Shown here: positions 8,367 to 35,056 of the stretch, piece by piece
Layout: each line of letters starts with the position of its first letter
Position numbering within the stretch: position 1 is the stretch's first letter
Assembly: GCF_029893105.1 (NCBI RefSeq)
Contig: NZ_JARXWG010000019.1
Coordinates: forward strand, 1 to 64,000
Reading direction: 5' to 3'
DNA length: 64,000 nucleotides
Source of the DNA: Parabacteroides sp. PF5-9
Lineage (GTDB): Bacteria; Bacteroidota; Bacteroidia; Bacteroidales; Tannerellaceae
Program-made: the position numbers and the translations under genes
Notes under the pieces: model-generated
What the model saw: the letters and a program-made list of their open reading frames with translations, nothing else
Database searches by the model: none
Told to the model about the DNA's origin: nothing

Positions 8367-10087
8367 AGGAAAAGCAGATAGATGAAATGATTGATGTCCT
8401 GCGGGAAGAGTTGATACAACGACGCTCTCCGGGGTATATGTGGAGAGGAAAGCTTTCATCGAGTGCCATTTCTACTTCCGTATCCGTATTTGCACTCTAT
8501 ATGATTGATCGGGAGAAATATGCTTCCTATATTCAACATGGCGCCGAATGGCTGAAAAGATCCATGCATGACGACGGCTCATGGGGAGATAGCCTTGAGA
8601 GTCCGTCTAACCTAACGGCAACACTGCTTACCTATGCTTCGCTCTATGCAGTAGGCGAAGCACCGGAGAAAGCGAAAGAGTATCTGAATGAAAAGTTCGG
8701 TGGTTCAACCGATCAGCATATTATAAAAGGTGTATTGACCTATTATGGGACGGATTTGACTTTTTCTGCTCCTATATTGGTGATGTGTGCTTTAGCCGGG
8801 GTTATAACGAGTTGGGATAAAATACCTCAATTGCCGTTTGAACTTTCTGTGTTTCCGCAACGATTGTTTCGATTCTTCCAGTTGCCGGTAGTCAGTTATG
8901 CTATACCAGCCTTGATAGCTGTCGGTATACTACGTTATAGAAAAGGGAAGAAGAATCTGTTTTCCCCATTGCGTGAGTCGTTTATCCCGAAATCACTGAA
9001 AGTGCTTGAGAAGTTACAACCGGATAACGGCGGATTCCTTGAAGCTGCACCTCTTACTGCTTTTGTGGCGATGTGTATGACCGGAGCAGGTTATCGTGAG
9101 CATATTGCTACACAAAGAGCAGCAGGCTTCTTAACCAACACAGTCCGGGAAGATGGAGCCTGGCCGATAGATACAGATCTGGCAAGCTGGGTGACAGCAT
9201 TAAGTGTAAGAGCCTTGGGAGATGATATCACAGATAAAGAAAGGCTGGCTAAAACAATTAAACTGAATGCATTTACTTTCGAGCATCCATTTACCGGAGC
9301 AAAGGAAGGGGGATGGGCCTGGACGGATTTGCCGGGTGCAGTGCCTGATGCAGATGATACTTCAGGAGCATTAGTCGCACTTCATATACTACAGGACGGT
9401 GTCTATTGTCCGGAAGTGGGAAAAGGAATAGAGTGGCTATTGGCTTTACAAAATAGTGACGGAGGTATGCCGACCTTTTGTAAAGGTTGGGGTAAGTTGC
9501 CTTTCGACCGGAGTAGCCCTGATATATCGGCTCATTCATTATTGGCTTTTGAACTGTGGTTGGAAGTATTACCCGTCGATTTACAGCAACGTTGTAAGAA
9601 AAGTATTCGTCGTATGTTGAATTGGATGCGGAGTATACAGGCGGCTGATGGTTCATGGACACCTTTATGGTTTGGTGACCAGAACGCCAACGATGAACGT
9701 TCTCCGGTATATGGAACAGCAATGACCGTAGAGTATCTTTCGACTTCCGGGGAGCCTGTCGCTCAGGAGATGATTGGAAAGGGACTTCAGTATATCCTTT
9801 CTACTCAGAATGAAGATGGCGGATGGGGTGGAGCAAAAGATGTTGCTTCTAAAGTCACTCTGACTTCACGGGCATTGAGTGCATTGGCTTCATTTCCTGA
9901 TAGCAACGCAGATGTTATGGAACGGGCTTTTGATTTTCTGTACCGGAGATATCAGGAAGGAGAATTGTTCCGGGCTGAGCCCATCGGACTGTATTTCTCC
10001 CGGTTATGGTATTCGGAAGAATTATATAATATCACGTTTGCCTTGAATGCGATTAAGAAATATAGAAAGTTTAACGTTCAAAATTAG
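8363..10087 (+). CDS. Squalene-hopene-cyclase-like class II terpene cyclase
   Basis: 574 residues, somewhat shorter than bacterial squalene-hopene cyclases (about 630). The protonation motif D329-A-D331-D332 lies in the typical context GWAWTDLPGAVPDADDT. QW-type repeats occur at D-D-G-S-W-G (about 71), Q-P-D-N-G-G-F (219), R-E-D-G-A-W-P (262), Q-N-S-D-G-G-M-P (near 374), Q-A-A-D-G-S-W (near 425) and Q-N-E-D-G-G-W-G-G (near 485). It should initiate cyclisation of a linear polyprene by protonation, like sporulenol or hopene synthases. Hydrophobic stretches near 130-190 could give monotopic membrane contact. It overlaps the toroid gene by 4 bp and ends the terpenoid operon. The real substrate and product are unknown; no squalene synthase is visible in the window. 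Confidence 0.8.
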   Translation: MKEKQIDEMIDVLREELIQRRSPGYMWRGKLSSSAISTSVSVFALYMIDREKYASYIQHGAEWLKRSMHDDGSWGDSLESPSNLTATLLTYASLYAVGEAPEKAKEYLNEKFGGSTDQHIIKGVLTYYGTDLTFSAPILVMCALAGVITSWDKIPQLPFELSVFPQRLFRFFQLPVVSYAIPALIAVGILRYRKGKKNLFSPLRESFIPKSLKVLEKLQPDNGGFLEAAPLTAFVAMCMTGAGYREHIATQRAAGFLTNTVREDGAWPIDTDLASWVTALSVRALGDDITDKERLAKTIKLNAFTFEHPFTGAKEGGWAWTDLPGAVPDADDTSGALVALHILQDGVYCPEVGKGIEWLLALQNSDGGMPTFCKGWGKLPFDRSSPDISAHSLLAFELWLEVLPVDLQQRCKKSIRRMLNWMRSIQAADGSWTPLWFGDQNANDERSPVYGTAMTVEYLSTSGEPVAQEMIGKGLQYILSTQNEDGGWGGAKDVASKVTLTSRALSALASFPDSNADVMERAFDFLYRRYQEGELFRAEPIGLYFSRLWYSEELYNITFALNAIKKYRKFNVQN

Positions 10088-10120: not shown

Positions 10121-11320
10121 ATGAAGAGAGGAGTTTTAGTTCTATTGTCTTTTATGACGTTGATCACTTATGCACAGGATAATATCCAGTGGCGAAATGA
10201 CCGGACCGGTATTTATAATGAGACCGGCTTAATGCAGTCATGGCCGGAGAAAGGTCCTGAGATGTTATGGTCTTATGAAGGACTGGGAGAGGGTCATTCG
10301 TCGGTTGCTATTACGGCTGGAAGGCTTTATCTGACGGGTTTAAAAAACGGCAAAGGGCTGATCTATGTCTTTGATTTAAACGGTGCGTTACTGAATAAAA
10401 AGGAGTATGGCCCGGAATGGGATAAGAATTACGTCGGACCGCGTGGAACTGTGACGGTAAACGAAGGAAAGGTTTACCTGGTGAGTGGCATGGGTAGTTT
10501 GTATTGCTTTGAAGCGAATAACCTCGACCTGCTTTGGCAAAAAGACCTGTTAAAAGAGTTCAATGCATCGAATATAGAATGGGGACTGAATGAAGCTCCG
10601 TTGATTATCGGAGAAAAACTGATCGTTACTCCCGGAGGTAAGCAACATAATGTGGTGGCATTAAATAAAGACAACGGCGAACTGATCTGGAGCAGTCCGG
10701 GTGAAGGCGATCTGTCTGCTTATTGCTCACCGTTATATATTAGTGACCAGGAGGTGCCACAGATCGTAACGATGACAGCCAACCATATTATCGGTATCGA
10801 GGCTGCTACAGGAAAGAAACTATGGTCACATAAAAATACGAATCGTTGGTCGGTTCACGCAAATACGCCGGTGTATGGCGACAATATGATCTTATGTACC
10901 AGCGGCTACGGAAGAGGTTCCACGATGTTGCGCCTGACCAATGGCGGGCGAAGTGTGGAACAGGTATGGTTCTCTGAAGAACTGGACAACCGTATCGGTG
11001 CAATGGTTAAGGTTGGTGATTATGTCTATGGTTCGGGCGACAGCAACCGTTACTGGTTTTGTGTAGACTGGAAAACCGGTGAGGTTAAGTACAAAGAACG
11101 CGGACTGGCAATGGGAACTATTATTGCGAATAACAATATGCTTTATTGCTATACCGACAAGGGAGATATGATTCTGGCCAAAGCAACACCTGCAAAGCTG
11201 GATATCGTCAGTCGGTTCAAGATTACTATGGGTACAGAGCAGCATTGGGCGCATCCGGTGATTTATAAAGACGTTATGTATGTTCGTCATGGCGACGCGT
11301 TAATGGCGTATAAGATATAG
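10121..11320 (+). CDS. Secreted PQQ-like beta-propeller protein
   Basis: 399-residue exported propeller with a signal peptide ending T-Y-A-Q, starting only 33 bp after the cyclase gene. It has the family N-terminal pattern NDRTGIYNETGLMQSWP, blade motifs such as A-L-N-K-D-N-G-E-L-I-W and W-K-T-G-E-V-K-Y, and the C-terminal EQHWAHPVIYKD and LMAYKI. It is the intact counterpart of the frameshifted copy at 396 but lacks two residues in the WRG-x-D segment. It lies in the island between the cyclase and further propellers, so periplasmic action on, or scaffolding for, the same pathway is inferred. No heme-binding CxxCH motif is present. Confidence 0.85.
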   Translation: MKRGVLVLLSFMTLITYAQDNIQWRNDRTGIYNETGLMQSWPEKGPEMLWSYEGLGEGHSSVAITAGRLYLTGLKNGKGLIYVFDLNGALLNKKEYGPEWDKNYVGPRGTVTVNEGKVYLVSGMGSLYCFEANNLDLLWQKDLLKEFNASNIEWGLNEAPLIIGEKLIVTPGGKQHNVVALNKDNGELIWSSPGEGDLSAYCSPLYISDQEVPQIVTMTANHIIGIEAATGKKLWSHKNTNRWSVHANTPVYGDNMILCTSGYGRGSTMLRLTNGGRSVEQVWFSEELDNRIGAMVKVGDYVYGSGDSNRYWFCVDWKTGEVKYKERGLAMGTIIANNNMLYCYTDKGDMILAKATPAKLDIVSRFKITMGTEQHWAHPVIYKDVMYVRHGDALMAYKI

Positions 11321-11350: not shown

Positions 11351-12565
11351 ATGTTAAATATGAAGACAGTTATAGTCGCATTGCTTTCTTTTACCACGTT
11401 GGTATTATCTGCTCAGGATAATATCCCGTGGAGAGGTGTCGATGGTACGGGAGTCTATTATGAGACTGGGTTGCTTAAATCATGGCCTACCAATGGTCCT
11501 GAATTGCTTTGGCATTTCGACGGGTTGGGTTTCGGGTTTTCTTCCGTCTCGATAGATCAGAGAAAATTGTTTGTTACCGGATTCACTGATGGGAAAGGCT
11601 ATCTGTATGTATTGGATATGAATGGTAAACTACTGAACAAAGTAGAGTACGGCACTGAATTTACCGGCGATAACTTTACCGGCACACGCAGCACGGCCAT
11701 TCCCCACGAGGGAAAGGTATATGTTGTAAGTGGAATCGCCGAACTGTTTTGCTACGATATAAATACCCTGAAACTGTTGTGGAAAAAGAATTACGCAACG
11801 GATTACGGGGGAGAGAATACCAAACATGGCTGGAACGGACCACCGCTGATCATCGACGAAAAGTTGATTATTGCACCGGGAGGCCCCACACATAATGTCC
11901 TTGCCTTGAATAAAACGACCGGTGATATCATCTGGAGTTCTGAAGGGATGAAAGGAATATCGGGATACGGGACACCGATCTTTCTCGACGATCAGGAAAT
12001 TCCACAGATTGTTATTATGATGGGTGACCATATTCTCGGGTTAGACGTGACGAACGGCAAAATGCTTTGGTCGTATGCCCATACAAACCGCTTCAGCGAA
12101 CATCCCAACACACCGGTGTATAGTGGTAACAGGTTGCTTTTTATGAGCGCTTACGACCAGGGCGCTCTCATGCTTCAGCTGACTGATGGCGGAAGGAAGG
12201 TCACGCCTGTCTGGGAGATTAAGGAACTGGGGCATACCACAGGGCATATGATGAAATATGGCGATTACGTCTACGGCCCAGGTAATCGCATAAACTGGTA
12301 TTGTGTAGATTGGAATACAGGGAAAGTCATGTATTCCGACAATACGATTGGTGTAGGTAATATCATTGCAGCCGATGGCTTGTTGTATTGTTATTCGGAG
12401 AAAGGTGAAATGGCATTGGTCAAACCCAATTCAGAGAAGTTTGAGATAATCAGTAAATTTCCCATTACTCTCGGAACAGAGCAGCATTGGGCGCATCCTG
12501 TCATTTATAAAGGAGTGTTATATGTTAGGCATGGGGATACGTTGATGGCGTATAAGATTAAATAG
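11351..12565 (+). CDS. Secreted PQQ-like beta-propeller protein
   Basis: 404-residue exported propeller, 30 bp after and clearly paralogous to the gene at 10121, probably a tandem duplicate. The signal peptide ends L-S-A-Q; the ATG at 11360 (MKTVIVALL) is an equally good start and removes only three residues. It keeps the pattern DGTGVYYETGLLKSWP near the N-terminus and EQHWAHPVIYKG plus LMAYKIK at the C-terminus. The sharp conservation of both ends across the family, with looser blades between, suggests the first and last strands close the propeller. Function unknown beyond the fold. Confidence 0.85.
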   Translation: MLNMKTVIVALLSFTTLVLSAQDNIPWRGVDGTGVYYETGLLKSWPTNGPELLWHFDGLGFGFSSVSIDQRKLFVTGFTDGKGYLYVLDMNGKLLNKVEYGTEFTGDNFTGTRSTAIPHEGKVYVVSGIAELFCYDINTLKLLWKKNYATDYGGENTKHGWNGPPLIIDEKLIIAPGGPTHNVLALNKTTGDIIWSSEGMKGISGYGTPIFLDDQEIPQIVIMMGDHILGLDVTNGKMLWSYAHTNRFSEHPNTPVYSGNRLLFMSAYDQGALMLQLTDGGRKVTPVWEIKELGHTTGHMMKYGDYVYGPGNRINWYCVDWNTGKVMYSDNTIGVGNIIAADGLLYCYSEKGEMALVKPNSEKFEIISKFPITLGTEQHWAHPVIYKGVLYVRHGDTLMAYKIK

Positions 12566-14071: not shown

Positions 14072-14992
14072 ATGAGGAAAGAACTGAAAATAGCATTGAA
14101 TCTGGCCATATTCCTATTAGTGGCAGGGTTTGTATGGTATATGGTGACTTCTCTGAATAAAGAAGAACGGATCTATGCAGATACAGGAGCGGCGAATACC
14201 GAACCTTTTGTCAGTCCGTATACAAAAACAGCAACATTTGATCTGCCGGCTGAGGTCAATCGTTTTGAGCTGGTTGATGATAAACTATATGTGTCAGCAA
14301 CACAGTCGGTATATATCTATGATACCGGAGGTCGGCAACAGTCGTCCTTCCCGGTAAAAGCGGATGTGCGGGATATCACTGTCAGCGGAGACAGCATTTA
14401 TGTACTCTATCCGACGTATATCGAAGTATATTCGCACGGAGGTGAGTTGATCCATGAGTGGGAAGCCTGTAGCGAGTTGTCGGATTATTGTTCGCTGGCC
14501 ATTGCCGGAGAGTATGTTTTCGTCACCGACGCTGCCAATAAGAACATCTGCCAATATACCCGCGAAGGCGGTTTCAGGCGATTCATCCAGAGTCCACGCG
14601 GATTTATCATCCCGAGTTACAATTTTGATATCGAAAGCCGGAATGATACCATTTACTGCGTGAACTCCGGACGACATCTGGTTGAAACCTACACATTGGA
14701 CGGTGAGTTTATCTCAGCCTTCGGCGGTCCCGGCGGTGAAGCCGGATTCTTTGCTGGATGCTGTAATCCGGCCTATATCTCGTTTACGACGGATGGCGAA
14801 TTGATCACTTCCGAGAAAGGTAATCCGCGGGTTTGTTATTACGGAACGAATGGCGAGTTTAAAGAAGTATTGTTGAACAACCGACTTCTGGGTGGCGGAA
14901 ATAAAGCTTATGAAGTAAGGGCATTGAAAGATATCCTGTTCGTTGCAGGGAAGGATAAGATAAACGTGTATCAGTTGAAAGTGGAGAGTTAA
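14072..14992 (+). CDS. Membrane-anchored NHL-like six-bladed propeller protein
   Basis: 306 residues with an N-terminal uncleaved transmembrane segment (about 8-26) and an NHL/6-bladed-propeller-like body (blade pieces such as Y-T-L-D-G-E-F-I-S-A-F-G-G-P-G-G and Y-G-T-N-G-E-F). Conserved cysteines occur in E-A-C-S-E-L-S-D-Y-C-S near residue 130 and in A-G-C-C-N-P near 230, both also present in the paralogue at 15108. A disulfide or metal/cofactor site is possible. It lies immediately before the Tat-type paralogue and the NapG/NapH-like genes, suggesting a role in the same redox assembly. The family has no assigned function known to me. Confidence 0.7.
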   Translation: MRKELKIALNLAIFLLVAGFVWYMVTSLNKEERIYADTGAANTEPFVSPYTKTATFDLPAEVNRFELVDDKLYVSATQSVYIYDTGGRQQSSFPVKADVRDITVSGDSIYVLYPTYIEVYSHGGELIHEWEACSELSDYCSLAIAGEYVFVTDAANKNICQYTREGGFRRFIQSPRGFIIPSYNFDIESRNDTIYCVNSGRHLVETYTLDGEFISAFGGPGGEAGFFAGCCNPAYISFTTDGELITSEKGNPRVCYYGTNGEFKEVLLNNRLLGGGNKAYEVRALKDILFVAGKDKINVYQLKVES

Positions 14993-15107: not shown

Positions 15108-16148
15108 ATGGAACCGAATAAAGAAAATACTCAGAAGATATCCCGCAAACGGTTTTTGCAGGTCTGTGGCTCGGTGGTAGCCGGGGGAACAATATTGGGT
15201 GTTTCCGGAACTTTATTGCGGAAAATGTTTATTATACCCGAAGGTATATTGCAGACAAATGCGTCCGGCAATGGAGGACGACTGACCGCGCGTCAGGAAT
15301 TCGCGTCTCCTTACAAGCTGGTCTCGTCGTTCAACGTACCGGATCAGATCGAAGGCTTTGAGATCTACGGAGAGAAACTGGTAGTTGCAGCGTCGAATAA
15401 TATATACATATATGACCGTTTCGGTACATTGTTGAATAATTTCGCCGTAGCCAGCCGGATTAGAGATATCGCTGTTTTCGACGACCGCATCTACCTATTA
15501 TTCCCTTCGCGTATCGAGGCCTATGACCTCGAAGGAGCATATCTGCTGGATTGGGAAGCATGTAGCGAGGAGTCGGATTATTGCTCATTCACAGTGACCG
15601 GCGACTATGTCTTTGCTACTGACGCGGCCAATAAGAACATCTGTAAATATACCACCGAGGGTAACTTTGTGAAATTCATCCAAAGCCCCAACGGATTTAT
15701 TATACCAAGTTACTCGTTTGGCATTACGCATGTCGACGGGACGTTGTATTGCTCCAACTCCGGCCGTCACCTGATCGAAAGCTATACGCTCGACGGCGAA
15801 TACCTGGGCGCATTCGGTAAGCCGGGTGGTGCCGACGGCCTGTTCTGCGGATGCTGTAACCCGGTACATCTGGCGTATACCTCTACCGGAGAGATTATCA
15901 CGTCGGAGAAAGGGAAACCGCGTATCAGCTGCTACAGTCCCGACGGACAGTTCCGCAGCGTGTTGCTCGATAGTAAAATGCTCGGAGGCGGTAATATGGC
16001 GTATGACGTAAAGGTGACAGACGATAAACTGTTCGTCACGGGTCAGCGCATGATATCCACTTTCCAATACGATAAAGTATTAGCTGCCAACACCGCCTGT
16101 TCGGGTTGTAGCGTGAATTGCCCATTGCGTGAAGGAATAACAATTTGA
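15108..16148 (+). CDS. NHL-like propeller protein with Tat-like signal and C-terminal Cys motif
   Basis: 346 residues, clearly paralogous to 14072 over the propeller (shared D-A-A-N-K-N-I-C, GFIIPSY, N-S-G-R-H-L, G-C-C-N-P, LGGGN). Two differences stand out. The N-terminus reads SRKRFLQVCG followed by a hydrophobic A-G-G segment, a twin-arginine-like signal with R-K in place of R-R. The C-terminus adds C-S-G-C-S-V-N-C-P, the spacing of an iron-sulfur or metal site. It is followed 6 bp later by a Tat-signal ferredoxin and then a NapH-like protein, so folded, cofactor-loaded export is plausible. Whether the R-K variant is used by Tat needs experiment. Confidence 0.7.
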   Translation: MEPNKENTQKISRKRFLQVCGSVVAGGTILGVSGTLLRKMFIIPEGILQTNASGNGGRLTARQEFASPYKLVSSFNVPDQIEGFEIYGEKLVVAASNNIYIYDRFGTLLNNFAVASRIRDIAVFDDRIYLLFPSRIEAYDLEGAYLLDWEACSEESDYCSFTVTGDYVFATDAANKNICKYTTEGNFVKFIQSPNGFIIPSYSFGITHVDGTLYCSNSGRHLIESYTLDGEYLGAFGKPGGADGLFCGCCNPVHLAYTSTGEIITSEKGKPRISCYSPDGQFRSVLLDSKMLGGGNMAYDVKVTDDKLFVTGQRMISTFQYDKVLAANTACSGCSVNCPLREGITI

Positions 16149-16154
16149 TGAATC

Positions 16155-16727
16155 ATGGAAGAGAAAAAAGAACCAAAGAATAGCCCGATTGCCCGGCGGA
16201 AGTTCCTGCAGACGATCGGCACGGTGGTGGCCGGAGGATCGATACTGGCTGTTGCCGGTGGCTTGGCCCATAAAGTGAAGGGGGAGGAGTCGACGCTCTT
16301 GTGGCAGATCGATCCGGATAAATGTACGCAGTGCGGACGTTGTGAGACGGATTGTGTGTTGCCTATTTCCGCTGTTAAGTGTATCCATGCCAATAGGGTG
16401 TGCGGGTATTGTGACCTTTGTGGAGGATATTACCGCTCGAATGTGAAGGAACTGAATACGGCGGCCGAGAACCTGATGTGCCCTACCGGTGCTATCAAAC
16501 GTGTATTTGTGGAAGATCCTTATTTCGAATATACGATCGATGAGGACTTATGCAACGGATGCGGTAAGTGTGTGAAAGGATGCGGTTCGTTTGGTAACGG
16601 ATCCCTTTACCTGCAGGTGAAACGTGAATTGTGTAAAGATTGTAACGAATGTAAGATTGCATTGGTTTGTGCGTCGGACGCGATTACTCGTGTTCCCAAA
16701 TCCTATGCCTATAAACTGAAAGACTAA
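16155..16727 (+). CDS. Tat-exported multi-[4Fe-4S] ferredoxin, NapG-like
   Basis: 190 residues. A classic twin-arginine signal R-R-K-F-L-Q lies at 14-19, followed by a hydrophobic A-G-G stretch. Cysteine groups follow: C57-x2-C60-x2-C63-x3-C67, a second set C76/C83/C86/C89 with C109-P, C133-x2-C136-x2-C139-x3-C143, and C160-x2-C163-x2-C166-x5-C172. This could bind up to four [4Fe-4S] clusters, as in NapG/NosG-type periplasmic ferredoxins. It is followed 12 bp later by a NapH-like membrane protein, the partner such ferredoxins have in menaquinol dehydrogenases. No nitrate or nitrous-oxide reductase is in the window, so the terminal acceptor is unknown. Confidence 0.8.
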   Translation: MEEKKEPKNSPIARRKFLQTIGTVVAGGSILAVAGGLAHKVKGEESTLLWQIDPDKCTQCGRCETDCVLPISAVKCIHANRVCGYCDLCGGYYRSNVKELNTAAENLMCPTGAIKRVFVEDPYFEYTIDEDLCNGCGKCVKGCGSFGNGSLYLQVKRELCKDCNECKIALVCASDAITRVPKSYAYKLKD

Positions 16728-16739
16728 AGATTAGATCGT

Positions 16740-18062
16740 ATGAAAAGACAACTCTATATATGGATGTCGCTGTTGTTGACTGTCGTAGCGAAAGCTCAGA
16801 ACAGATTCCCTAAGCCTGACTTCGAATCGGGCTATCAATACCCGGATCTGCAGTATCCGGTACCGAACGAAACGCTTTGGACGGTTATCGACATCGTGTT
16901 ATTGGTCGTCCTGATGGGCATCGTGGCATGGGCGGTGATCAGGAAGCGTACACGGAAGCCGGTCGTATGGGTGTCGATTATTTCGGTGGCTTATTTCGGC
17001 TTCTACCGGAGTGGTTGTATCTGCAGTATCGGTTCGATACAGAATGTTTCGCTGGCGTTGGTCGATAATACCTATATATTGCCGGTGTCAGTATTGTTAT
17101 TCTTTATCTTGCCGGTCTTGTTTGCCTTTCTGTTCGGGAGGGTGTTCTGCGCGGGAGTCTGTCCGTTCGGGGCATTGCAGGAGTTGGTGAATATAAAGAG
17201 TTACAGGTTGTCGCGAACGGTGACTACCGTACTGGGACTTATCCCGTGGCTGTATCTGATCTTTGCGGTATTGTATGCTGTAACGCGGAGCAGTTTTATC
17301 ATCTGCCGGTTCGATCCGTTTATCGGTATCTTCCGTTTGGGAGGAGATATAGGGCTGATTGTTTTCGGTGCGGCATTGTTGCTTCTTTCGATCTTTGTGG
17401 GACGGCCTTTCTGTCGTTTTATCTGCCCGTATGGTGCTTTGTTGAGCCTGTTCTCACGGGTTTCGATCTGGAAAGTAGAGATCACGAAGAGCCCCTGTAT
17501 CAATTGCGAACTTTGCCATAACGCGTGTCCGGTGGATGCCATTAAAGCTCCTTATGATAATAAAGTAAAAGAAAGTCGTATGGATGGCGTGAAACGTATC
17601 CTGGCTTATGCGGTTGTTCTGCCGTTAATGATACTGGCGGGTGCCATCCTGATGCGTATGGCCAGCAGCGAACTGAGCCGTGCGAATAAGGATGTTCGTT
17701 TATATGATATGGTGATGGAGTACGAGACAGAGCCGATGGATGTTCTTCCGCTTGAGTTGGAAGCCTTTTATGGACAAGGGAAGAGTATAGAAGAGTTGAC
17801 ACAGAAATATGAGTCCATACAGGACGACTTTAAACTTTATTCCACAATTGCGGGTGGTTTTATCGGACTGGTGATCGGCATGGCGCTGATCGGGCTCTCG
17901 CTTAAACGAACCCGTAAGCTGTATGAAATCGATCATGCCGCTTGCGTGGATTGCGGAAGGTGTTTTAGCTATTGCCCGCAGAATACCGGACAAAGCCCGG
18001 TGTTTAAGATTCCGGATTCAACGTTTAAAGTTGATAAGACTGCTAACAACCTTGAACCTTGA
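16740..18062 (+). CDS. NapH/NosR-like membrane iron-sulfur protein
   Basis: 440 residues with a cleavable-looking N-terminal signal (to K-A-Q), about six transmembrane segments, and two conserved C-x3-C-P motifs in F-C-A-G-V-C-P-F-G-A-L and F-C-R-F-I-C-P-Y-G-A-L, the hallmark of the NapH/NosR/CcoG-type family. After the second comes a C-I-N-C-E-L-C-H-N-A-C-P ferredoxin site, and near the C-terminus C-V-D-C-G-R-C-F-S-Y-C-P. A roughly 75-residue soluble region near 305-375 separates two helices. Family knowledge: NapH passes electrons between menaquinol and NapG. With the preceding Tat ferredoxin it should form a membrane electron conduit. Its last codons and stop run into TTGAA-type short repeats. 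Confidence 0.8.
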   Translation: MKRQLYIWMSLLLTVVAKAQNRFPKPDFESGYQYPDLQYPVPNETLWTVIDIVLLVVLMGIVAWAVIRKRTRKPVVWVSIISVAYFGFYRSGCICSIGSIQNVSLALVDNTYILPVSVLLFFILPVLFAFLFGRVFCAGVCPFGALQELVNIKSYRLSRTVTTVLGLIPWLYLIFAVLYAVTRSSFIICRFDPFIGIFRLGGDIGLIVFGAALLLLSIFVGRPFCRFICPYGALLSLFSRVSIWKVEITKSPCINCELCHNACPVDAIKAPYDNKVKESRMDGVKRILAYAVVLPLMILAGAILMRMASSELSRANKDVRLYDMVMEYETEPMDVLPLELEAFYGQGKSIEELTQKYESIQDDFKLYSTIAGGFIGLVIGMALIGLSLKRTRKLYEIDHAACVDCGRCFSYCPQNTGQSPVFKIPDSTFKVDKTANNLEP

Positions 18063-18086
18063 ACTTTGAATATTTGAACTTTTGAA
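18050..18086. repeat. Short TTGAA-type tandem repeat
   Basis: CCTTGAA, CCTTGAA, CTTTGAA, then 8-bp variants ending TTTGAA follow one another across the stop codon of the NapH-like gene. Similar TTGAAC/GTTCAA words recur between island genes (12583-12605, 24222-24261, 25450-25475, 29255-29320). Confidence 0.5.
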
Positions 18087-18096
18087 TTATATACAT

Positions 18097-19899
18097 ATGA
18101 ACAAAGCGATTCTCAGAAATGTAGCCCTCGTCTCGGCTGTTTTTATAGTGACTTTATCGATAATGCTGGTCACGAACTATTTTCAGGTGAGAGATACAAC
18201 TCCTCTTAAAGATGGAATTGTTGAAACATTAAAGGAAGTAAATGATGCGAATGCCAATAATCCGGTTTTGCAGGAACAAATCCGTCAGTTGGATCTATTG
18301 GCTCGTAAAGCCTATTTCGTGCGGTTAGATCATTTGCTGAATGGTGTTTATATCCTTTTAGGGATGTTAATGGTATTTATCGTTTGTGTTAGGTTCTATT
18401 TCGCCAAAGATAAGAATATCCCGGATAAGGAAATCGACCCGATCGATGAATGGGCGATTAAATCGAATGCCCGTAAATATGTGACGTGGGGAGCTGTTGG
18501 GATAGCAGCAGTAGCATTGGCCTTTGTCTTCATGAGTTCGCCATATATGCAGACAAGTGTATCAACGGAAGAAACCGCTGAAGTAGAGATGATGGCAGAG
18601 GTGCAACAGGAAGATAATCAGACATCAACCGCTATACAGGAAGAAGCTGTTGTAGAAGAGGTCGTTGCCGACGAAGGAACAGGAGATGTCGCTGATGTTG
18701 AGGAAATCCAGGAAGGTGAAAGTGAAGTAGAAGCAGCACCGCAACCAGCCGTCTCCAGAGTTACTCATAATGGTTTCCGTGGAAATAATTCGAATGGTAT
18801 ATCTTCAGCAAAAGGAGTACCGGCGAAGTGGAATTTAAGCAGTGGTACCAATATCGCATGGAAACAGCCTATTCCGCGTAAAGGATATAATTCACCGGTG
18901 ATTAACGGGAATAAAGTGTTTTTCTCCGGAGCCGATGATCAGGCTCGTGAACTTTACTGTTATGATCTGAATACGGGAGAGCAGCTTTGGAAACTGGCAG
19001 CAACAGGTATTCCAGGATCTCCTTCACAGATGCCTAAAACAACAGAAGACACAGGGTTGGCCGCATCGAGTGTGGCAACAAACGGTAGTCAGGTGTGTGC
19101 TATCTTCGCAACAGGGGATGTTATCTGTGCTGATATGAATGGCAATCAGGTGTGGGCGAAAAATTTGGGAGTTCCCGATAATCACTATGGCTATGCATCC
19201 TCTTTGCTAATATTCGGTAATCTGTTGATCGTGCAGTATGATAATAGTAATGCTCCTAAGGTTATTGCATTGGATCTGGCAACAGGCGCTGAGCGTTGGA
19301 GTAAGAGTAGAACAGAGAAAGTGACCTGGAGCTCACCGATAATTGCTTCTGTAAACAACTCTCCTCAATTGGTATTGATGGGGAATCCGGCGATGACCGC
19401 TTACAACCCGAATAATGGCGAGCAGCTTTGGCGGGTAGAGTGTCTTACCGGTGAAGTGGGTGCTAGTGCATGTAGTTCAAATGGTATTGTTTTTGGAGCT
19501 AGTGAGTACTCAAAGCTAGTAGCAATAAATGCGACTGACGGAAGTGTTTTGTGGGAAGGGAATGATTTTTTACCCGAAGTAGCCAGTCCGGTAGCTACAA
19601 AAGATAATGTTTATATAGCCACCAGCTATGGGGTTTTAGCTGCGTTTGATACACAAACCGGAGAATTGCGTAAAGAACATGAATTGAATACGGAGTTTTA
19701 TTCGTCACCAATGATTGTAGAGGGGAAAATTTACCTTTTCAGCAATGATGGTAAGATGCATATATTCTCTGCAACTAATGATTTCAATTTGTTGGATTCA
19801 TTTGAAACAGGCGAGAGAACCTTTGCCACTCCGGCCTTTACCGATGGAAAGATCGTTGTGCGTACTGAAAATAGTATTTACTGTGTAGCAGCAAATTGA
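18097..19899 (+). CDS. Three-helix membrane-anchored PQQ-like propeller protein
   Basis: About 600 residues starting at ATG 18097 (the frame extends to 18082, adding five residues). Transmembrane segments lie near 9-27, 80-100 and 128-148, followed by an acidic, Glu/Val-rich linker (about 155-220) and a C-terminal PQQ-like propeller (about 225-600) with blades such as Y-D-L-N-T-G-E-Q-L-W, L-D-L-A-T-G-A-E-R-W and F-D-T-Q-T-G-E-L-R. The architecture places the propeller on a flexible stalk outside the membrane. It sits between the NapH-like gene and the NADH-oxidising subunit gene, starting one base before the latter. It could dock other redox proteins; that is inference from position. Confidence 0.8.
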   Translation: MNKAILRNVALVSAVFIVTLSIMLVTNYFQVRDTTPLKDGIVETLKEVNDANANNPVLQEQIRQLDLLARKAYFVRLDHLLNGVYILLGMLMVFIVCVRFYFAKDKNIPDKEIDPIDEWAIKSNARKYVTWGAVGIAAVALAFVFMSSPYMQTSVSTEETAEVEMMAEVQQEDNQTSTAIQEEAVVEEVVADEGTGDVADVEEIQEGESEVEAAPQPAVSRVTHNGFRGNNSNGISSAKGVPAKWNLSSGTNIAWKQPIPRKGYNSPVINGNKVFFSGADDQARELYCYDLNTGEQLWKLAATGIPGSPSQMPKTTEDTGLAASSVATNGSQVCAIFATGDVICADMNGNQVWAKNLGVPDNHYGYASSLLIFGNLLIVQYDNSNAPKVIALDLATGAERWSKSRTEKVTWSSPIIASVNNSPQLVLMGNPAMTAYNPNNGEQLWRVECLTGEVGASACSSNGIVFGASEYSKLVAINATDGSVLWEGNDFLPEVASPVATKDNVYIATSYGVLAAFDTQTGELRKEHELNTEFYSSPMIVEGKIYLFSNDGKMHIFSATNDFNLLDSFETGERTFATPAFTDGKIVVRTENSIYCVAAN

Positions 19900-19900
19900 T

Positions 19901-22309
19901 ATGGCGTGTAATTGTGAAAATAACAAGGCTGGGACAAAGGAAGAGATGATCGTTCGTATAGATGCGATTATCGATCGGATCGGGACATCCCGGGATATAA
20001 TTATTCCTTTGTTGCAGGCCATACAGGAGGAGTTCAGTTATCTTCCTTCGGATGCGGTCGAACGTATTTATGAACGGACGGAGATCGACCGGGCACAGCT
20101 AATCAGTGTGTCGACTTTTTATTCCCAGTTCCGGCATATCCCTTATGGGAAGCACTTGATTAAAGTATGTACAGGCACGGCCTGTCATGTGAAAGGTGCC
20201 GGGAATGTCTATGATTCGTTCCGCAGGGAATTGAAGATGACGGATGACAATATAACGACTGATGATCAGTTGTTCTCTATAGAGAAGATTGCCTGTCTTG
20301 GTTGTTGTACGCTGGCCCCGGTTGTTCAGATCGATGAAAAGATCTACGGACATGTTCTACCGGGAAAAGTGAATGAAGTGATTGAAGATTTTCTTTCTCT
20401 TCAGGATGATAAGGAGACAGAGGAGAGTAAAATATCCAAACGTCAGGTGGCCGGAGAGATTCGACTCGGAATGGGATCGTGTTGTCAGGCCAGCGGATCG
20501 ACCGATATTTACAGTGAGTTACAGACAGCATCCAATGAACTGGGTATCGAGGTAAATATAAAACCGGTAGGGTGTGTCGGGGTTTGTAATAAAGTGCCGT
20601 TGATCGATGTTGTTCTACCTGATGGCACAATCACACGTTACCCGAATGTGAAAGCAAGCGAGATCAAAGAAATTCTTCATCACCATTTCAAACCGGCCGG
20701 TTATCTGAAGCGATTAAAGAACACCTTTCTTAATCAGGTAGATACGTTTCATACCGATATCACCTGGGATAATGTAATCTGGAAACCACAGAATGAAAGA
20801 ACAGGAGTCATCGATAGTTTTCTGTCCGGTCAAAAACATATATCTACTGAAGGGTTTGGATTCCTTGCTCCGTTGAATTTGGAGGAGTATATGGCGAATA
20901 AGGGTTTCGATGCATTGAAAAGATCGTTGTCTTATTCAAGGCAGGAAGTGATCGATACGATTCTGAAGAGTGGTATTCGCGGACGTGGAGGGGGCGGTTT
21001 CCCAACCGGCAAGAAATGGGAAATAGTTGCTGCATCGGATAAGAAAGAGAAATATATGATCTGTAATGGTGATGAAGGTGATCCAGGTGCATTTATGGAT
21101 CGGATGATGCTTGAATCGTATCCGTTCCGTGTAATCGAAGGGATGATCATTGCTGGTTATGCAGTGGGAGCCAATAAAGGAATCTTTTATATCCGTGCCG
21201 AATATCCGTTGGCTGTCGTTCGTATTCGTTCGGCCATCGAATTATGCCGTGAGCATCATTTGATCGGAGAAAATATTTTGGGAAGTGATTTCTCTTTTGA
21301 AATATCCATATTCGAGGGCGCAGGTGCCTTTGTTTGTGGAGAGGAAACAGCCTTGATCGCTTCTATAGAAGGAGAGCGCGGATTCCCGAAACAACGCCCT
21401 CCGTATCCGGCTGTTGAAGGATTGAACGGACTTCCTACGTTGGTGAACAATGTCGAAACATTAAGTCAGATCCCCTATATTGTCAGAAATGGTGACGATC
21501 ATTATAGTCAGATCGGTACAAAGGGAAGTAAAGGCACCAAGGTGTTCGCATTGGCCGGCAAAATACGTCATGGCGGATTGATAGAAGTCCCGATGGGAAT
21601 AACGTTGAATCAAATCATAGAAGATCTTGGAGGCGGGGTAGAAAAAGGAGAAAAACTGAAGGCTGTACAAATCGGAGGTCCTTCTGGAGGGTGTATTCCT
21701 GCCCATTTATGCGACGTACAGGTCGATTTCGATGCTTTTAATCAGATGGGTGCCATGATGGGTTCCGGTGGATTAGTTGTATTGAGTGAAAATGACTGTA
21801 TGGTCGATATCGCTCGTTATTTTCTGAGTTTTACCTGTGACCAATCTTGTGGAAAATGTACCTTCTGCCGTGTAGGAATACGCCGGATGCTTGATCTTTT
21901 GGGGAAAATATGTAGCGGGAAAGCCGTTATGGAAGATATTGACACACTGGAAGAACTGGCTTTAAATATTAAGAAATCATCCTTATGCGGTTTAGGTAAG
22001 ACAGCACCCAATCCGGTACTGACCACTTTGAAATATTTCCGCGAAGAATACATAGAACATGTGAACGGAGTATGTAAAACCGGAACCTGTAAGGATATGG
22101 TTAAATATATCGTTACCGACCAATGTATAGGCTGTACCAAATGTGCGAAAGCTTGTCCGGTAGATGCCATTCCGTATACCCCGTACGAAGTGCATACAAT
22201 AGATACATCTGTTTGTGTATTATGCGGACTTTGTATTGATGAGTGCAGTTATGATGCGATAGAAAAGGTCTCGCTCAAAGAACCTAAAAAAGAAACTGTT
22301 AATGCATAA
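19901..22309 (+). CDS. NuoE-NuoF-type NADH-oxidising flavo-iron-sulfur subunit (HydB/HndC-like)
   Basis: 802 residues, cytoplasmic, in four parts. Residues 1-165 are a NuoE-like [2Fe-2S] thioredoxin fold (C-T-G-T-A-C and C-L-G-C-C). Residues about 180-275 are a second thioredoxin-like [2Fe-2S] domain (G-S-C-C, V-G-C-V-G-V-C). Residues about 280-700 are NuoF-like, with the glycine-rich NADH/FMN loop G-R-G-G-G-G-F-P-T-G, E-G-D-P-G-A-F, G-E-E-T-A-L and the S-C-G-K-C-T-F-C-R cluster site. The last ~65 residues carry two [4Fe-4S] ferredoxin motifs. This is the architecture of the NAD-linked subunits of multimeric [FeFe]-hydrogenases, with NuoE fused on. No H-cluster subunit is in the window. It should draw electrons from NADH for the island. 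Confidence 0.85.
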   Translation: MACNCENNKAGTKEEMIVRIDAIIDRIGTSRDIIIPLLQAIQEEFSYLPSDAVERIYERTEIDRAQLISVSTFYSQFRHIPYGKHLIKVCTGTACHVKGAGNVYDSFRRELKMTDDNITTDDQLFSIEKIACLGCCTLAPVVQIDEKIYGHVLPGKVNEVIEDFLSLQDDKETEESKISKRQVAGEIRLGMGSCCQASGSTDIYSELQTASNELGIEVNIKPVGCVGVCNKVPLIDVVLPDGTITRYPNVKASEIKEILHHHFKPAGYLKRLKNTFLNQVDTFHTDITWDNVIWKPQNERTGVIDSFLSGQKHISTEGFGFLAPLNLEEYMANKGFDALKRSLSYSRQEVIDTILKSGIRGRGGGGFPTGKKWEIVAASDKKEKYMICNGDEGDPGAFMDRMMLESYPFRVIEGMIIAGYAVGANKGIFYIRAEYPLAVVRIRSAIELCREHHLIGENILGSDFSFEISIFEGAGAFVCGEETALIASIEGERGFPKQRPPYPAVEGLNGLPTLVNNVETLSQIPYIVRNGDDHYSQIGTKGSKGTKVFALAGKIRHGGLIEVPMGITLNQIIEDLGGGVEKGEKLKAVQIGGPSGGCIPAHLCDVQVDFDAFNQMGAMMGSGGLVVLSENDCMVDIARYFLSFTCDQSCGKCTFCRVGIRRMLDLLGKICSGKAVMEDIDTLEELALNIKKSSLCGLGKTAPNPVLTTLKYFREEYIEHVNGVCKTGTCKDMVKYIVTDQCIGCTKCAKACPVDAIPYTPYEVHTIDTSVCVLCGLCIDECSYDAIEKVSLKEPKKETVNA

Positions 22310-22315
22310 TATATT

Positions 22316-23233: not shown

Positions 23234-23250
23234 AAACAGAAGAGTAATCT

Positions 23251-24216
23251 ATGAATATTACGATAAATAATACCGTTGTAGAAGTTTTGCCCGGCGAAAC
23301 CCTGATCGAAGTGGCTCGTCGGCTCGGTTATACTGTTCCTTCTTTATGTTATGGGAAAGGAGCGAAGCATAAATCGTCCTGCATGGTTTGTGCCGTTAAA
23401 AATAGTGCCAATGGACAGATCATACCTTCGTGTACGACTTTACCGACAGAGGGGATGGATATAGAAACAGAAAGTGAAGAGGTTAAACTCGTTCGTTCCT
23501 TATCGCTCGAATTGCTGTTGAGCGATCATCGTGCCGATTGTGAAGCGCCTTGTACCATGGTCTGCCCGAAAGGATTGGACGTAGAGAAGATGCTGGGTTA
23601 TTATGATGACGGAGTATATAATAAAGCGTATGCGGAAATTGAAGCTTCATTTCAACTACCAGAAATAGCCTGTGATACCTGTAAAGCCCCTTGTGAAAAA
23701 GCATGTCGACGAGGTACCATCGATAAAGCTGTAACTATTCGCGCGATCATCAAAGAAGTGGTTGAGAAAGGAGAACCATCCGGTGTTGAAGCCGATAGAA
23801 CAGAACATACGAAGACAAAGAATATGTATCTTTCCCGGTTGGGACGATTTACGCCGACAGAACGGGAGCGATTAAAAGCAACTGTCAATACGGCTTCCAA
23901 CTGCCTGCATTGTGCTTGTGCCGGAAGGACGGATTGCAAGTTGCGTTTATATGCTACGACAGAAGGAATAAAACGGACACGGTATGAAGCGAATTCTACA
24001 TTGCCCGTGATGACAAAAATGCATGTGACCGGAAACCTGTGGTTTGAGCAGGCGAAGTGTATCCGTTGCGGATTATGTGTTTATAACAGTGAAAACGGTT
24101 TTACGTTTAAAGACAGAGGTTTTGGTATGCAGGTTGTTCTGCCGGAAGAAAATAAGAATAATGTAAGGGAAGAACTGGCTGAATTATGTCCGACAGGAGC
24201 ACTATATAAAGTTTAA
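23251..24216 (+). CDS. [2Fe-2S]/[4Fe-4S] electron-transfer hub protein (NuoG/GltD N-terminal-like)
   Basis: 321 residues, cytoplasmic. Residues 1-80 are a plant-type [2Fe-2S] domain with NuoG-like cysteine spacing (C-Y-G...S-S-C-M-V-C...S-C). Residues about 90-170 resemble the cysteine-rich helical domain at the N-terminus of GltD, NfnB and dihydropyrimidine dehydrogenase (A-D-C-E-A-P-C-T-M-V-C-P and C-D-T-C-K-A-P-C-E-K-A-C-R-R-G). The C-terminal 100 residues hold two more cysteine groups (C-L-H-C-A-C; C-I-R-C-G-L-C with C-P-T-G-A). No H-cluster motifs are present. It is the likely electron acceptor of the NuoEF-like subunit two genes upstream. Confidence 0.75.
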   Translation: MNITINNTVVEVLPGETLIEVARRLGYTVPSLCYGKGAKHKSSCMVCAVKNSANGQIIPSCTTLPTEGMDIETESEEVKLVRSLSLELLLSDHRADCEAPCTMVCPKGLDVEKMLGYYDDGVYNKAYAEIEASFQLPEIACDTCKAPCEKACRRGTIDKAVTIRAIIKEVVEKGEPSGVEADRTEHTKTKNMYLSRLGRFTPTERERLKATVNTASNCLHCACAGRTDCKLRLYATTEGIKRTRYEANSTLPVMTKMHVTGNLWFEQAKCIRCGLCVYNSENGFTFKDRGFGMQVVLPEENKNNVREELAELCPTGALYKV

Positions 24217-24270: not shown

Positions 24271-25425
24271 ATGAAGATTATGAGACTATTGGCAATACTT
24301 GGTGGAATATTGTTCCTGCTGTTTGGTTGCGGGGGCAAGTCCGACTTTTCAGGAAATGACGGGGAGATGGACTGGCCTTTGTTCAGAGGAGATGCGGCAC
24401 TGAGTGGATATACAAATACTAAGCTTCCTAAAAAACCGAAGTTGTTATGGACATTTAAAAGTGATGTCCGTACAGTCTCTTCCCCTGTCGTAGATAAGGG
24501 TACGACCTATTGGTGTGATCGCAGAGGGCTTGTGAGAGGAGTCGATATAAACGGAAAAGAGACGTTTAAATATGATTTTCAGACAGCGGTAGAAGCTACA
24601 CCGATGATCTATGACTCTGTATTGTATATCGGTCGAATCGACGGCTATATGAGTGCAATCTCATTGGCTAAACGCGATACGATCTGGAATTATGAAACAA
24701 TGGGACAAGTCTCTGCTTCCCCGAATCTGACTAAGTTCGGAAAGCGGAAAGCCGTTGTTTTTGGGAGTTATGATAATTACCTCTATTGTGTAGATGCTAA
24801 AACCGGAGAAATGTTGAGCCAGTTTGAATCGGGCTATTATCTGAATGGTGCGGCTGCATTATGGAAAGGACATGTCATCTTTGGAGGTTGCGATTCTTGG
24901 GTCAGGATTATTGACTGTCAGACAGGTATACAAACAGACTCTTTATTACTCGATGCCTATGTGCCCGCTTCACCGGCTATTATGGGAGATTATTGTTATG
25001 TAGGCGATTACTCCGGAAGTATTTATAAACTGATGTTGGAGAACGGAAAGATCATCCGCCATAAGAAGATTGTTACAGGCAATAGTGAAAGCGGTTCATT
25101 TGTCTCTGTTCCGGCGATATCCAGTGAAGCTTATTATTTTGTGACAGGAGACAGGCATCTCACCTCCATGAGCCGTAAAACTGGTAAAGAGAACTGGAAA
25201 TACATGATGAAAGGAAATATGGGAGAAAGTTCACCCGTCGTATGTGATGATAAGGTTATTATCTGTACAAAAACAGGTATTGTTTCCATACTGGATGCAG
25301 AAAGCGGAGAATTACTTTGGGAATATGATACCGGAGAACAAATCGTCGGTTCACCCGCAATTATAAAGAACCATTTCTTTATACTAACGACAAAAGGAAC
25401 CCTATTCTGCTTCGGGAAAGACTAA
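24271..25425 (+). CDS. PQQ-like beta-propeller lipoprotein
   Basis: 384 residues. The signal peptide ends in a lipobox L-F-G-C followed by G-G-K, so the mature protein is probably lipid-anchored; the start at 24280 would also work. The first blade begins W-P-L-F-R-G-D-A, followed by repeats such as V-D-A-K-T-G-E-M-L, M-S-R-K-T-G-K-E-N-W and L-D-A-E-S-G-E-L-L-W. It is closer to BamB-like lipoproteins than to the small secreted paralogues. A strong terminator-like hairpin begins at its stop codon, so transcription may pause before the ABC genes. Confidence 0.8.
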   Translation: MKIMRLLAILGGILFLLFGCGGKSDFSGNDGEMDWPLFRGDAALSGYTNTKLPKKPKLLWTFKSDVRTVSSPVVDKGTTYWCDRRGLVRGVDINGKETFKYDFQTAVEATPMIYDSVLYIGRIDGYMSAISLAKRDTIWNYETMGQVSASPNLTKFGKRKAVVFGSYDNYLYCVDAKTGEMLSQFESGYYLNGAAALWKGHVIFGGCDSWVRIIDCQTGIQTDSLLLDAYVPASPAIMGDYCYVGDYSGSIYKLMLENGKIIRHKKIVTGNSESGSFVSVPAISSEAYYFVTGDRHLTSMSRKTGKENWKYMMKGNMGESSPVVCDDKVIICTKTGIVSILDAESGELLWEYDTGEQIVGSPAIIKNHFFILTTKGTLFCFGKD

Positions 25426-25482: not shown

Positions 25483-26154
25483 ATGTCATTAATTAAACTT
25501 ACAGATATAAGGAAGAGTTTCGGAGATGGTGAGAACAAACTGAATCACGTTCTCCGCGGAATAAACCTGAATGTAGAAAAAGGAGAGTTTATAGCTGTGA
25601 AAGGACAATCCGGTTCGGGAAAAACAACCTTATTATCCATTTTAGGTACATTACTTCAACCCGATACGGGCAATTACCTGTTGAACGGAGAAGAAATGGT
25701 TGATACGCGTATCGATCATTCCCAAATAAGGAATAGAGATATCGGTTTTGTGTTTCAGGATCACCGTTTGATGCCCCAGTATACAGCTTTAGAAAATATA
25801 TTGCTCCCGACTTTGGCATACGCTTCCGAATCGGACGATGAACAAACAACGTATGCGAACGAATTACTAAAACTAACGCATATAGAGGGAATAGGGCATC
25901 AATATCCTTCTACCTTATCCGGAGGAGAGGCCAGCCGTGTGGCTGTCTGCCGTGCATTGATCATGAAACCGCTCTTGTTGTTGGCTGATGAGCCGACAGG
26001 ACAGTTGGATGCCGCGAACGCACGGAATATCGCTTCATTACTTTCAGAAATTAATCAAACATTACATACGACCATTATTATGGTTACACATTCTGATGAG
26101 ACTTCATCTTTCGCTCATCGGATTCTTACGCTTAAAGAGGGAGTCTTATTGTGA
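25483..26154 (+). CDS. ABC transporter ATP-binding protein (LolD/YbbA type)
   Basis: 223 residues with Walker A GQSGSGKTT near 40-48, Q-loop F-V-F-Q-D-H, signature L-S-G-G-E-A-S-R-V and Walker B L-L-L-L-A-D-E-P-T-G. Size and sequence fit the MacB/LolD/FtsE-type ATPases that pair with FtsX-like permeases. It overlaps the permease gene by 4 bp (GTGA). Such systems usually move lipoproteins, lipids or hydrophobic compounds away from the inner membrane rather than import solutes. In this island it may release a terpenoid or lipoprotein; the cargo is inference. Confidence 0.88.
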   Translation: MSLIKLTDIRKSFGDGENKLNHVLRGINLNVEKGEFIAVKGQSGSGKTTLLSILGTLLQPDTGNYLLNGEEMVDTRIDHSQIRNRDIGFVFQDHRLMPQYTALENILLPTLAYASESDDEQTTYANELLKLTHIEGIGHQYPSTLSGGEASRVAVCRALIMKPLLLLADEPTGQLDAANARNIASLLSEINQTLHTTIIMVTHSDETSSFAHRILTLKEGVLL

Positions 26155-33938: not shown

Positions 33939-33941
33939 AGC

Positions 33942-34985: not shown

Positions 34986-35056
34986 CCGGATGTAAAATAG
35001 ATTTCGAAGATACATACTTTCTGAAAAATGGGTTACAGTTTTTTATGAATTATTTA

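Follow-up and report, generated by a model that had tools for sequence, protein, structure and literature searches.

The electron-bifurcating enzymes of the Bfu family are described as using H2, formate, NADPH or other soluble partners as their third substrate, and 17 clades are unassigned in the family description (PMC9304861). NapH-like membrane proteins pose a second puzzle, and the reactions of most of their systems are stated to be unknown (PMC8238504). An operon in Parabacteroides sp. PF5-9 brings both puzzles into a single locus. It lies in the first 64 kb of contig C19 (NZ_JARXWG010000019.1, positions 1 to 64,000; hereafter the window) of a 3.69 Mb genome that is 99.6% complete. Two of its genes code for a Tat-type periplasmic polyferredoxin and a NapH/NosR-like transmembrane iron-sulfur protein. 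We lean towards a model where these proteins are the periplasmic and membrane arms of an NADH-linked conduit, with a Bfu enzyme as the source and with outward flow. The operon may thus represent an undescribed route that moves electrons from the cell interior without cytochromes or a known nitrogen-oxide reductase. If true, strict anaerobes would have a means to bring very low-potential electrons beyond the cytoplasm.

The original prediction named the two genes as a quinol conduit of the NapG/NapH kind, but overlooked an NADH-oxidising, electron-bifurcating-type module (19901-24216) in the same gene run. The quinol part of that name is not supported, and this linked partner appears to be an NAD(H) enzyme. 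The module very likely belongs to the Bfu family, and bifurcation itself is predicted from its sequence. When its larger subunit, a fused Bfu-C/Bfu-B chain (Bfu-BC), is compared with PDB structures, the nine best matches (9n5u, 9bov, 8oh5, 7q4v, 7p5h, 7t2r, 7q4w, 8a6t and 9mqx; 557-691 bits) are all Bfu-type complexes or chains of HydB/StnB build, namely HydB, StnB, NiFe-HydB, NfnB and similar. Complex I NuoF reaches 347.5 bits at best and NAD formate dehydrogenase 381, and a complex I-type NADH module was rejected on this difference from NuoF. The alignment to the five best chains extends over the FMN/NAD domain, the B1 cluster and the two C-terminal [4Fe-4S] motifs. PF01512 (149.3 bits), PF10589 (106.5 bits) and PF00037 (38.1 bits), which we take to be the Pfam equivalents of the InterPro domains of Bfu proteins, all score above their cut-offs. 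The NuoE domain PF01257 (149.8 bits, cut-off 24.8) is in the same chain as the Bfu-B part, and the SLBB domain PF10531 is a weak match (21.0 bits, cut-off 27). The published domain set for BfuB, given as an InterPro list, comprises FMN-binding 51K, NADH_4Fe-4S, ferredoxin and SLBB (PMC9304861).

The B2 site provides a more specific signature. Its four cysteine and one histidine ligands, which are Cys438, Cys476, His525, Cys531 and Cys536 in Acetomicrobium mobile, are considered diagnostic and are missing in non-bifurcating homologues (PMC8880783). These ligands map to C633, C671, H720, C725 and C730 of the fused protein, with equal spacing save one residue. The His-Cys-Cys part and the sequence GAFM[DN]R are present in 68 of 68 fused homologues longer than 700 amino acids; the first cysteine is detected by pattern in 62 and is seen in five of the remaining six. 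Two residues near FMN, A202 and M204 in A. mobile numbering, are kept within an aligned GAFMDR, and no counterpart of the third residue named for that species, F182, was placed in the alignment. The cofactor at this position is disputed; in Thermotoga the assignment was to zinc, and complex I carries no such ligands (PMC9499530).

The second subunit, BfuA, matches Fer2_4 (47.9 bits, cut-off 22.8) and Fer4_20 (31.4 bits, cut-off 25.8), and corresponds to the first ~167 residues of Stn/Nfn-type BfuA chains in the PDB. Hereafter, "near" homologues are those of the window clade, whose NapH-like proteins share ~60% identity or more, and "far" homologues form a second clade at ~40-45%. The FAD motif is found in 0 of 44 near BfuA proteins, and a single FAD-type Rossmann motif is found in 11 of 15 far ones. 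The NADPH motif (GGGxxAx[DE]) is absent from all 59 near and far proteins, and the E. coli GltD control was positive. In the four far proteins with a C-terminal FAD motif found by pattern, this motif lies 118 residues after the first, as expected if the NADPH domain had been deleted; the pattern missed this same motif in GltD itself, where the inserted domain is visible in the alignment. From these sequence features we read BfuA as the descendant of an NADPH-linked Bfu ancestor that switched its third partner. At one far locus (L129:2448-5051, minus strand) BfuA is fused in frame with a propeller that elsewhere is a separate lipoprotein-type gene, which is topologically odd. A metallo-beta-lactamase-fold protein (22316-23233) is encoded between Bfu-BC and BfuA in the window; its best model is AidB lactonase, at 180 of 360 bits, and the match is retained in 10 of 80 near loci.

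Both of the genes highlighted originally are genuine open reading frames, and their assignment as a Tat ferredoxin and a NapH/NosR-like membrane protein is borne out. The ferredoxin has 190 amino acids, a twin-arginine N-terminus (ARRKFLQ) and four sets of [4Fe-4S] cysteines. Among 83 aligned rows, 16 of its 17 cysteines are conserved at 100% and the other at 98%, and a simple twin-arginine pattern occurs in 71 of 82 homologues longer than 150 amino acids. Far-clade ferredoxins, such as those at L122:8703-9374 and L129:10704-11411, carry an additional N-terminal cysteine motif. The membrane protein has 440 amino acids and matches Fer4_5 (63.2 bits, cut-off 22) and Fer4. Cysteines C93, C95, C137, C141, C189, C225 and C229 and two full [4Fe-4S] motifs are present in 99-100% of 100 rows and are invariant in a 39-row alignment (A2). 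Hydropathy indicates a signal peptide and about seven transmembrane (TM) segments. The loops with the CxxxCP and CxxCxxCxxxC motifs are assigned to the cytoplasm by their positive lysine/arginine charge, and those with C93/C95 and C189 are assigned to the periplasm in the same way.

A tree of the 39 rows, drawn open, groups the near and far NapH-like clades (support 88/99) and leaves NosR, E. coli NapH and the genome's two other Fer4_5 proteins outside, although the long branch makes the placement of E. coli NapH unsafe and the nearest other Bacteroidales NapH-like family was left out. Members of another such family in this order have 365-400 amino acids (L172-L175), and a beta-barrel-like open reading frame comes next in L172 and L174. 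A plasmid search with the NapH-like protein recovered NosR-type partial matches only. Measured against curated NCBIfam models, the ferredoxin scores 31.6 of 269 bits for NapG, and the membrane protein scores 57.2 of 213.05 for NapH and 60.8 of 1000 for NosR; a further curated NapG/NapH model gave 47.1 of 234 bits. By these cut-offs the proteins stand outside NapG, NapH and NosR, and the original idea of an unassigned periplasmic partner was a good one.

The reported lack of a nitrate or nitrous-oxide reductase also holds for the genome as a whole. Molybdopterin oxidoreductases, NapA included, are covered by PF00384, which has 0 matches in this genome and is positive in 11 of 14 control genomes. 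The NosZ propeller model likewise has 0 matches in the genome; it was positive in 0 of the 14 controls but did match the NosZ-bearing plasmid W01, taken as positive control. A search of the genome for a nap or nos cluster without G/H genes of its own found none. An nrfA gene is paired with a dedicated NrfH-like gene whose product has four CXXCH motifs (L191:404-2514, contig C7), and the genome probably reduces nitrite through this predicted 4-haem NrfH, independently of the conduit. Among 24 operon proteins there is no CXXCH haem motif, save two that overlap iron-sulfur motifs. A flavinylated NosR-like system was also considered and rejected, because the protein has no FMN-binding domain and the operon has no ApbE. 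Neither FMN_bind nor ApbE was detected among the scanned operon genes, and the two ApbE genes of the genome are both on other contigs.

The genes of the conduit are mostly linked across Bacteroidales: ferredoxin, membrane protein, CCNP-bearing NHL propeller, PQQ-type propellers, Bfu-BC, BfuA and a LolD/FtsX exporter. Relatives were found in 141 stretches of GTDB genome contigs, and near loci were counted in the best 80 of these, each neighbour only where the locus has enough flank for that gene. All 80 are labelled as Bacteroidetes or its families, except for one metagenome-assembled genome labelled Eubacteriales. Upstream of the membrane protein gene are the ferredoxin (74 of 77), the NHL propeller (62 of 71) and the anchored first propeller (56 of 62). 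Downstream are the three-TM second propeller (59 of 68), fused Bfu-BC (51 of 63), BfuA (44 of 58) and LolD (37 of 52). Several near loci with missing parts have unrelated flanking genes, as though the run had been broken up. In the 20 far-clade loci that were fetched, the core recurs with a glycosyltransferase, LolD and FtsX and without adjoining terpenoid genes. Fused Bfu-BC adjoins in 16 of these 20, and in the remaining four genomes a Bfu-BC match is on another contig, in an open frame of fused length (780-837 amino acids).

The NapH-like protein was matched in 41 of 247 Bacteroidales genomes (E 1e-50 or better, or large pieces), with an identity of 62-100% in five of them and ~36-45% in 36. 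Carriers include a strain of Parabacteroides distasonis (L070), and the Bacteroidales samples are labelled as coming from gut, rumen, termite and sediment. In a phylum-wide draw of 395 genomes the protein was matched in the window's genome only, which at most hints at a restriction to Bacteroidales; 21 of the 395 genomes are identified, and six of these, the window's included, are of the same order, the rest of the same class only.

Domain scans agree with the original description of the surroundings as propellers and a terpenoid operon: propellers lie on both sides of the two genes, and the terpenoid-type genes lie upstream. The large assigned open reading frames form a co-directional run on the plus strand from 3994 to 31882, with a largest gap of 115 bp (Table 1). 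The run begins with the iron-sulfur protein, the radical SAM protein, the DUF116-polyprenyl diphosphate synthase fusion, the small toroid protein and the terpene cyclase-like protein. It continues with two secreted-type PQQ propellers, an anchored one and two NHL propellers, followed by the ferredoxin and the membrane protein. The three-TM propeller, the fused NuoE-NuoF chain (Bfu-BC), the metallo-beta-lactamase-fold protein, the short NuoG-like protein (BfuA) and the lipoprotein-type propeller come next. LolD, FtsX, the glycosyltransferase and a further propeller complete the 3' end.

Table 1. Features of the gene run in the window, in order of position.
Feature	Position	Strand	Basis
Cassette gene 1: iron-sulfur protein with 12 invariant cysteines (15 rows)	3994..4704	+	
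Cassette gene 2: radical SAM protein, CX3CX2C in 23/23	4701..5918	+	
Cassette gene 3: fusion of DUF116 and a polyprenyl diphosphate synthase with both DDxxD motifs	5930..7483	+	
Cassette gene 4: small alpha-alpha toroid protein	7494..8366	+	
Cassette gene 5: class II terpene cyclase-like protein, DxDD	8363..10087	+	
Secreted-type PQQ propeller	10121..11320	+	
Secreted-type PQQ propeller	11351..12565	+	
Core PQQ-type propeller, one N-terminal TM segment	12641..14065	+	
Second NHL propeller copy, N-terminal anchor	14072..14992	+	
NHL beta-propeller, invariant GCCNP, C-terminal CxxCxxxC, N-terminal membrane/export segment RKRFLQ (no canonical twin arginine)	15108..16148	+	
Tat-type periplasmic polyferredoxin (NapG-like), four [4Fe-4S] motifs	16155..16727	+	Open reading frame, families, conservation, twin-arginine pattern
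NapH/NosR-like transmembrane iron-sulfur protein: signal peptide, ~7 TM segments, two CxxxCP, two CxxCxxCxxxC	16740..18062	+	Families, alignments, hydropathy, charge, AF2 model
Core PQQ-type propeller, three N-terminal TM segments	18082..19899	+	
Fused Bfu-C/Bfu-B: NuoE [2Fe-2S], N-terminal [2Fe-2S], FMN/NAD domain, B1 cluster, B2 site, two C-terminal [4Fe-4S]	19901..22309	+	
BfuA-like subunit: one [2Fe-2S], about four [4Fe-4S] motifs, without FAD/NADPH domain	23251..24216	+	
Core PQQ-type propeller, predicted lipoprotein (lipobox by eye)	24271..25425	+	
LolD-type ABC ATPase	25483..26154	+	
FtsX-type permease	26151..29282	+	
Glycosyltransferase family 1/4; belongs to the core run in the far clade	29325..30590	+	
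Secreted-type PQQ propeller	30605..31882	+	

Near the start of the window, a first propeller gene (~396-1600) is frameshifted near 600-650, which indicates a pseudogene or an assembly error. Beyond the run, the minus strand (32161-35015) carries two adjoining LytS-type histidine kinases and one LytTR response regulator, beside a CarboxypepD-type protein.

The NHL protein encoded just before the ferredoxin (15108-16148) is a candidate on the acceptor side. Its structural model is a propeller (pLDDT 89.2). GCCNP is invariant in a 44-row alignment (A1), and CCNP is present in all 17 far proteins and in 73 of the 74 near ones. A C-terminal CxxCxxxC is found in 49 of the 74 near proteins and in none of the 17 far ones. 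The adjacent cysteines of CCNP resemble the vicinal disulfide of methanol dehydrogenase, a likeness from which we draw no function. Export of this protein by the Tat system is unsupported, as a twin-arginine pattern occurs in 15 of the 74 near proteins and in none of the far ones (0 of 17). A plasmid search with the NHL protein gave nothing, and no reductase of a recognised kind was found among the operon proteins.

In the model that we favor, a cytoplasmic Bfu-type enzyme composed of BfuCB and BfuA would exchange electrons with NAD(H), and ferredoxin would probably be its second partner, as in other Bfu enzymes. BfuA would then deliver electrons to the cytoplasmic clusters of the NapH/NosR-like protein, a transfer that we regard as probable given the linkage, co-occurrence and topology of the components. 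The membrane protein would relay them to the Tat ferredoxin on the periplasmic side, from where they would reach propeller proteins, foremost the NHL protein with its invariant CCNP. If NADH and reduced ferredoxin are confurcated, the resulting electrons would be at or below the NADH potential and could reduce a periplasmic or envelope target. In genomes that carry the terpenoid cassette, one candidate client is a cyclised polyprenoid that LolD/FtsX would export. Both the use of ferredoxin and the terminal partner are features that we infer.

Outward flow, argued by analogy, seems the most likely direction because the periplasmic ferredoxin is of the low-potential type and because the alternative of PQQ-dependent oxidation is weakly supported. 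Extending this model, we tentatively put forward the possibility of electron export that is free of cytochromes and flavinylation and perhaps of quinones, although we would not bet on it in this complete form. A confurcating Bfu enzyme with a transmembrane iron-sulfur protein as third substrate would send electrons of sub-NADH potential to the periplasm, where propellers might use them on an envelope component, which in some species could be a cyclised polyprenoid.

Several observations weigh against the outward, NADH-linked conduit. In 12 of 63 near loci with enough flank no Bfu gene is adjacent. The NHL fold finds its best matches among non-enzymes (NHL domains, 17% identity) and otherwise among generic propellers. 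The model of the NapH/NosR-like protein from AF2 (AlphaFold2; pLDDT 78.5) had zero matches at E <= 0.001 in a fold search of the PDB. Finally, relatives of NapH are usually thought to be fed by quinol (PMC8238504).

It is possible, but in our view rather unlikely, that electrons instead travel in the oxidative direction. The propellers would then oxidise an extracellular substrate, like the PQQ alcohol dehydrogenases found next to certain NosR-like proteins, and electrons would pass inward through the ferredoxin and the NapH-like protein to the Bfu enzyme, to be bifurcated to NAD+ and ferredoxin. Gene clusters that combine NapH-like proteins with ExaA, a PQQ alcohol dehydrogenase, are reported from 172 genomes (PMC8238504), one locus examined has a NosR-like protein beside PedF and ApbE, and Bfu enzymes are described as reversible (PMC9304861). 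However, the propellers of the operon fit the BamB/PQQ_2 model far better than that for PQQ dehydrogenases, TIGR03075, whose cut-off is 480 bits; three of them score 27.8, 22.5 and 45.4 bits, and another scan gave 59.8. Also, the genome has no PqqE above cut-off, a weaker point given that none of the control genomes or records reached that cut-off either.

We assign a similarly low chance to menaquinone-linked respiration, where the NapH-like protein would exchange electrons with menaquinone, the quinone pool would connect the Bfu enzyme with the conduit, and the propellers would act as the terminal reductase. Such a scheme draws on the description of NapH and its homologues as putatively quinone-binding or quinol-fed (PMC8238504) and on the prediction of a quinone-reducing Nuo-Bfu enzyme (PMC9304861), but the linked donor module is an apparent NAD(H) enzyme and the similarity to NosR and NapH is limited to the membrane and cluster region.

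The terpenoid genes raise the further prospect that the redox core serves solely as the reducing supply for their pathway, for instance by feeding the radical SAM enzyme or the saturation of an exported polyprenoid. DxDD is the catalytic motif of class II terpene cyclases, and the cyclase-like protein carries DxDD[TS] in 43 of 43 sequences; against a curated hopene cyclase model it remains below cut-off (69.7 of 431.1 bits). In the DUF116 part of the adjacent fusion (5930-7483), seven cysteines are invariant in 31 rows. The cyclase occurs in 11 of the 247 Bacteroidales genomes, and nine of these 11 are among the 41 carriers of the NapH-like protein (hypergeometric p 1.8e-6, kinship uncorrected). 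When the near clade is excluded, co-occurrence is 5 of 7 (p 9.5e-4, kinship uncorrected). Of the 52 near loci whose flank is long enough, 31 have the cyclase gene upstream.

However, no cyclase match occurs in 32 of the 41 carriers of the NapH-like protein, and the five cassette genes are found together, away from the conduit, in four genomes (L150-L153). One of these, G167 (97% complete, L152), carries the cassette without the NapH-like protein, the Tat ferredoxin or a Bfu-BC of fused length. In G164 (82% complete), the other of the two cyclase genomes outside the 41, the cyclase is on a short contig ending in a core-type propeller, so that the assembly may merely have missed the conduit. Both genomes, which have no NapH-like match, also have no ferredoxin and only shorter, unfused Bfu-B matches, a point in favour of the proposed conduit. 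The genome G016 has a lone cyclase, and the other four cassette genes are not in the stretch fetched (L149). The terpenoid genes are therefore a separable five-gene cassette that usually co-occurs with the conduit, a companion rather than a part of it. The link noticed in the original prediction is real but not essential, as the far loci demonstrate. We consider an exclusive role in terpenoid supply improbable, and the pathway can be one client of the conduit. As for a role as G/H accessories to a nitrate or nitrous-oxide reductase located elsewhere in the genome, the family resemblance is outweighed by the lack of PF00384 and NosZ matches and by scores that fall far short of the NCBIfam cut-offs, so that this role is rejected and, for this genome and within its completeness, refuted.

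No description of this operon was recognised in a literature search, which was judged mostly by titles and the beginnings of abstracts and covered few subscription papers or preprints. In the parts of the text that were available, the words NapH, NosR, periplasm and propeller are absent from the Bfu family paper (PMC9304861), "propeller", "PQQ" and "Bacteroid" from the paper on NapH-like proteins and flavinylation (PMC8238504), and NapH and periplasm from PMC11406978.

Compared with known systems, the locus shares with Bfu enzymes of the HydABC/StnABC kind the BfuBC core, with its FMN/NAD domain, iron-sulfur motifs and full set of B2 ligands, and with StnC the N-terminal [2Fe-2S] and Fer4_20 region of BfuA. 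It differs in the fusion of BfuC to BfuB, in a BfuA without a catalytic or nucleotide domain, and in a third partner that is apparently a membrane protein reaching the periplasm. Sporomusa-type Stn and Nfn-Bfu transhydrogenases are among the best PDB matches for both subunits, and a single FAD-type Rossmann motif persists in 11 of 15 far BfuA proteins, but the NADPH motif is found in 0 of 59 and the entire nucleotide domain is missing in the window clade. Like NapG and NapH of periplasmic nitrate reductase, the operon pairs a Tat polyferredoxin with a membrane CxxxCP protein; here, however, the scores fall below the curated ones, NapA is absent and E. coli NapH sits on a long branch outside the clade. 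With NosR and the flavinylated NapH-like systems (PMC8238504) the membrane protein shares Fer4_5 and, by eye, motifs of the CxC, CxxxCP and CxxDPF type, whereas the N-terminal FMN-binding domain was not detected in it and the NosR score is 60.8 of 1000 bits. The cyclase-like protein has the DxDD[TS] motif and the cyclase Pfam domains of squalene-hopene and other class II terpene cyclases, and is set apart by its score (69.7 of 431 bits), a separate small toroid partner and the accompanying DUF116-polyprenyl synthase fusion.

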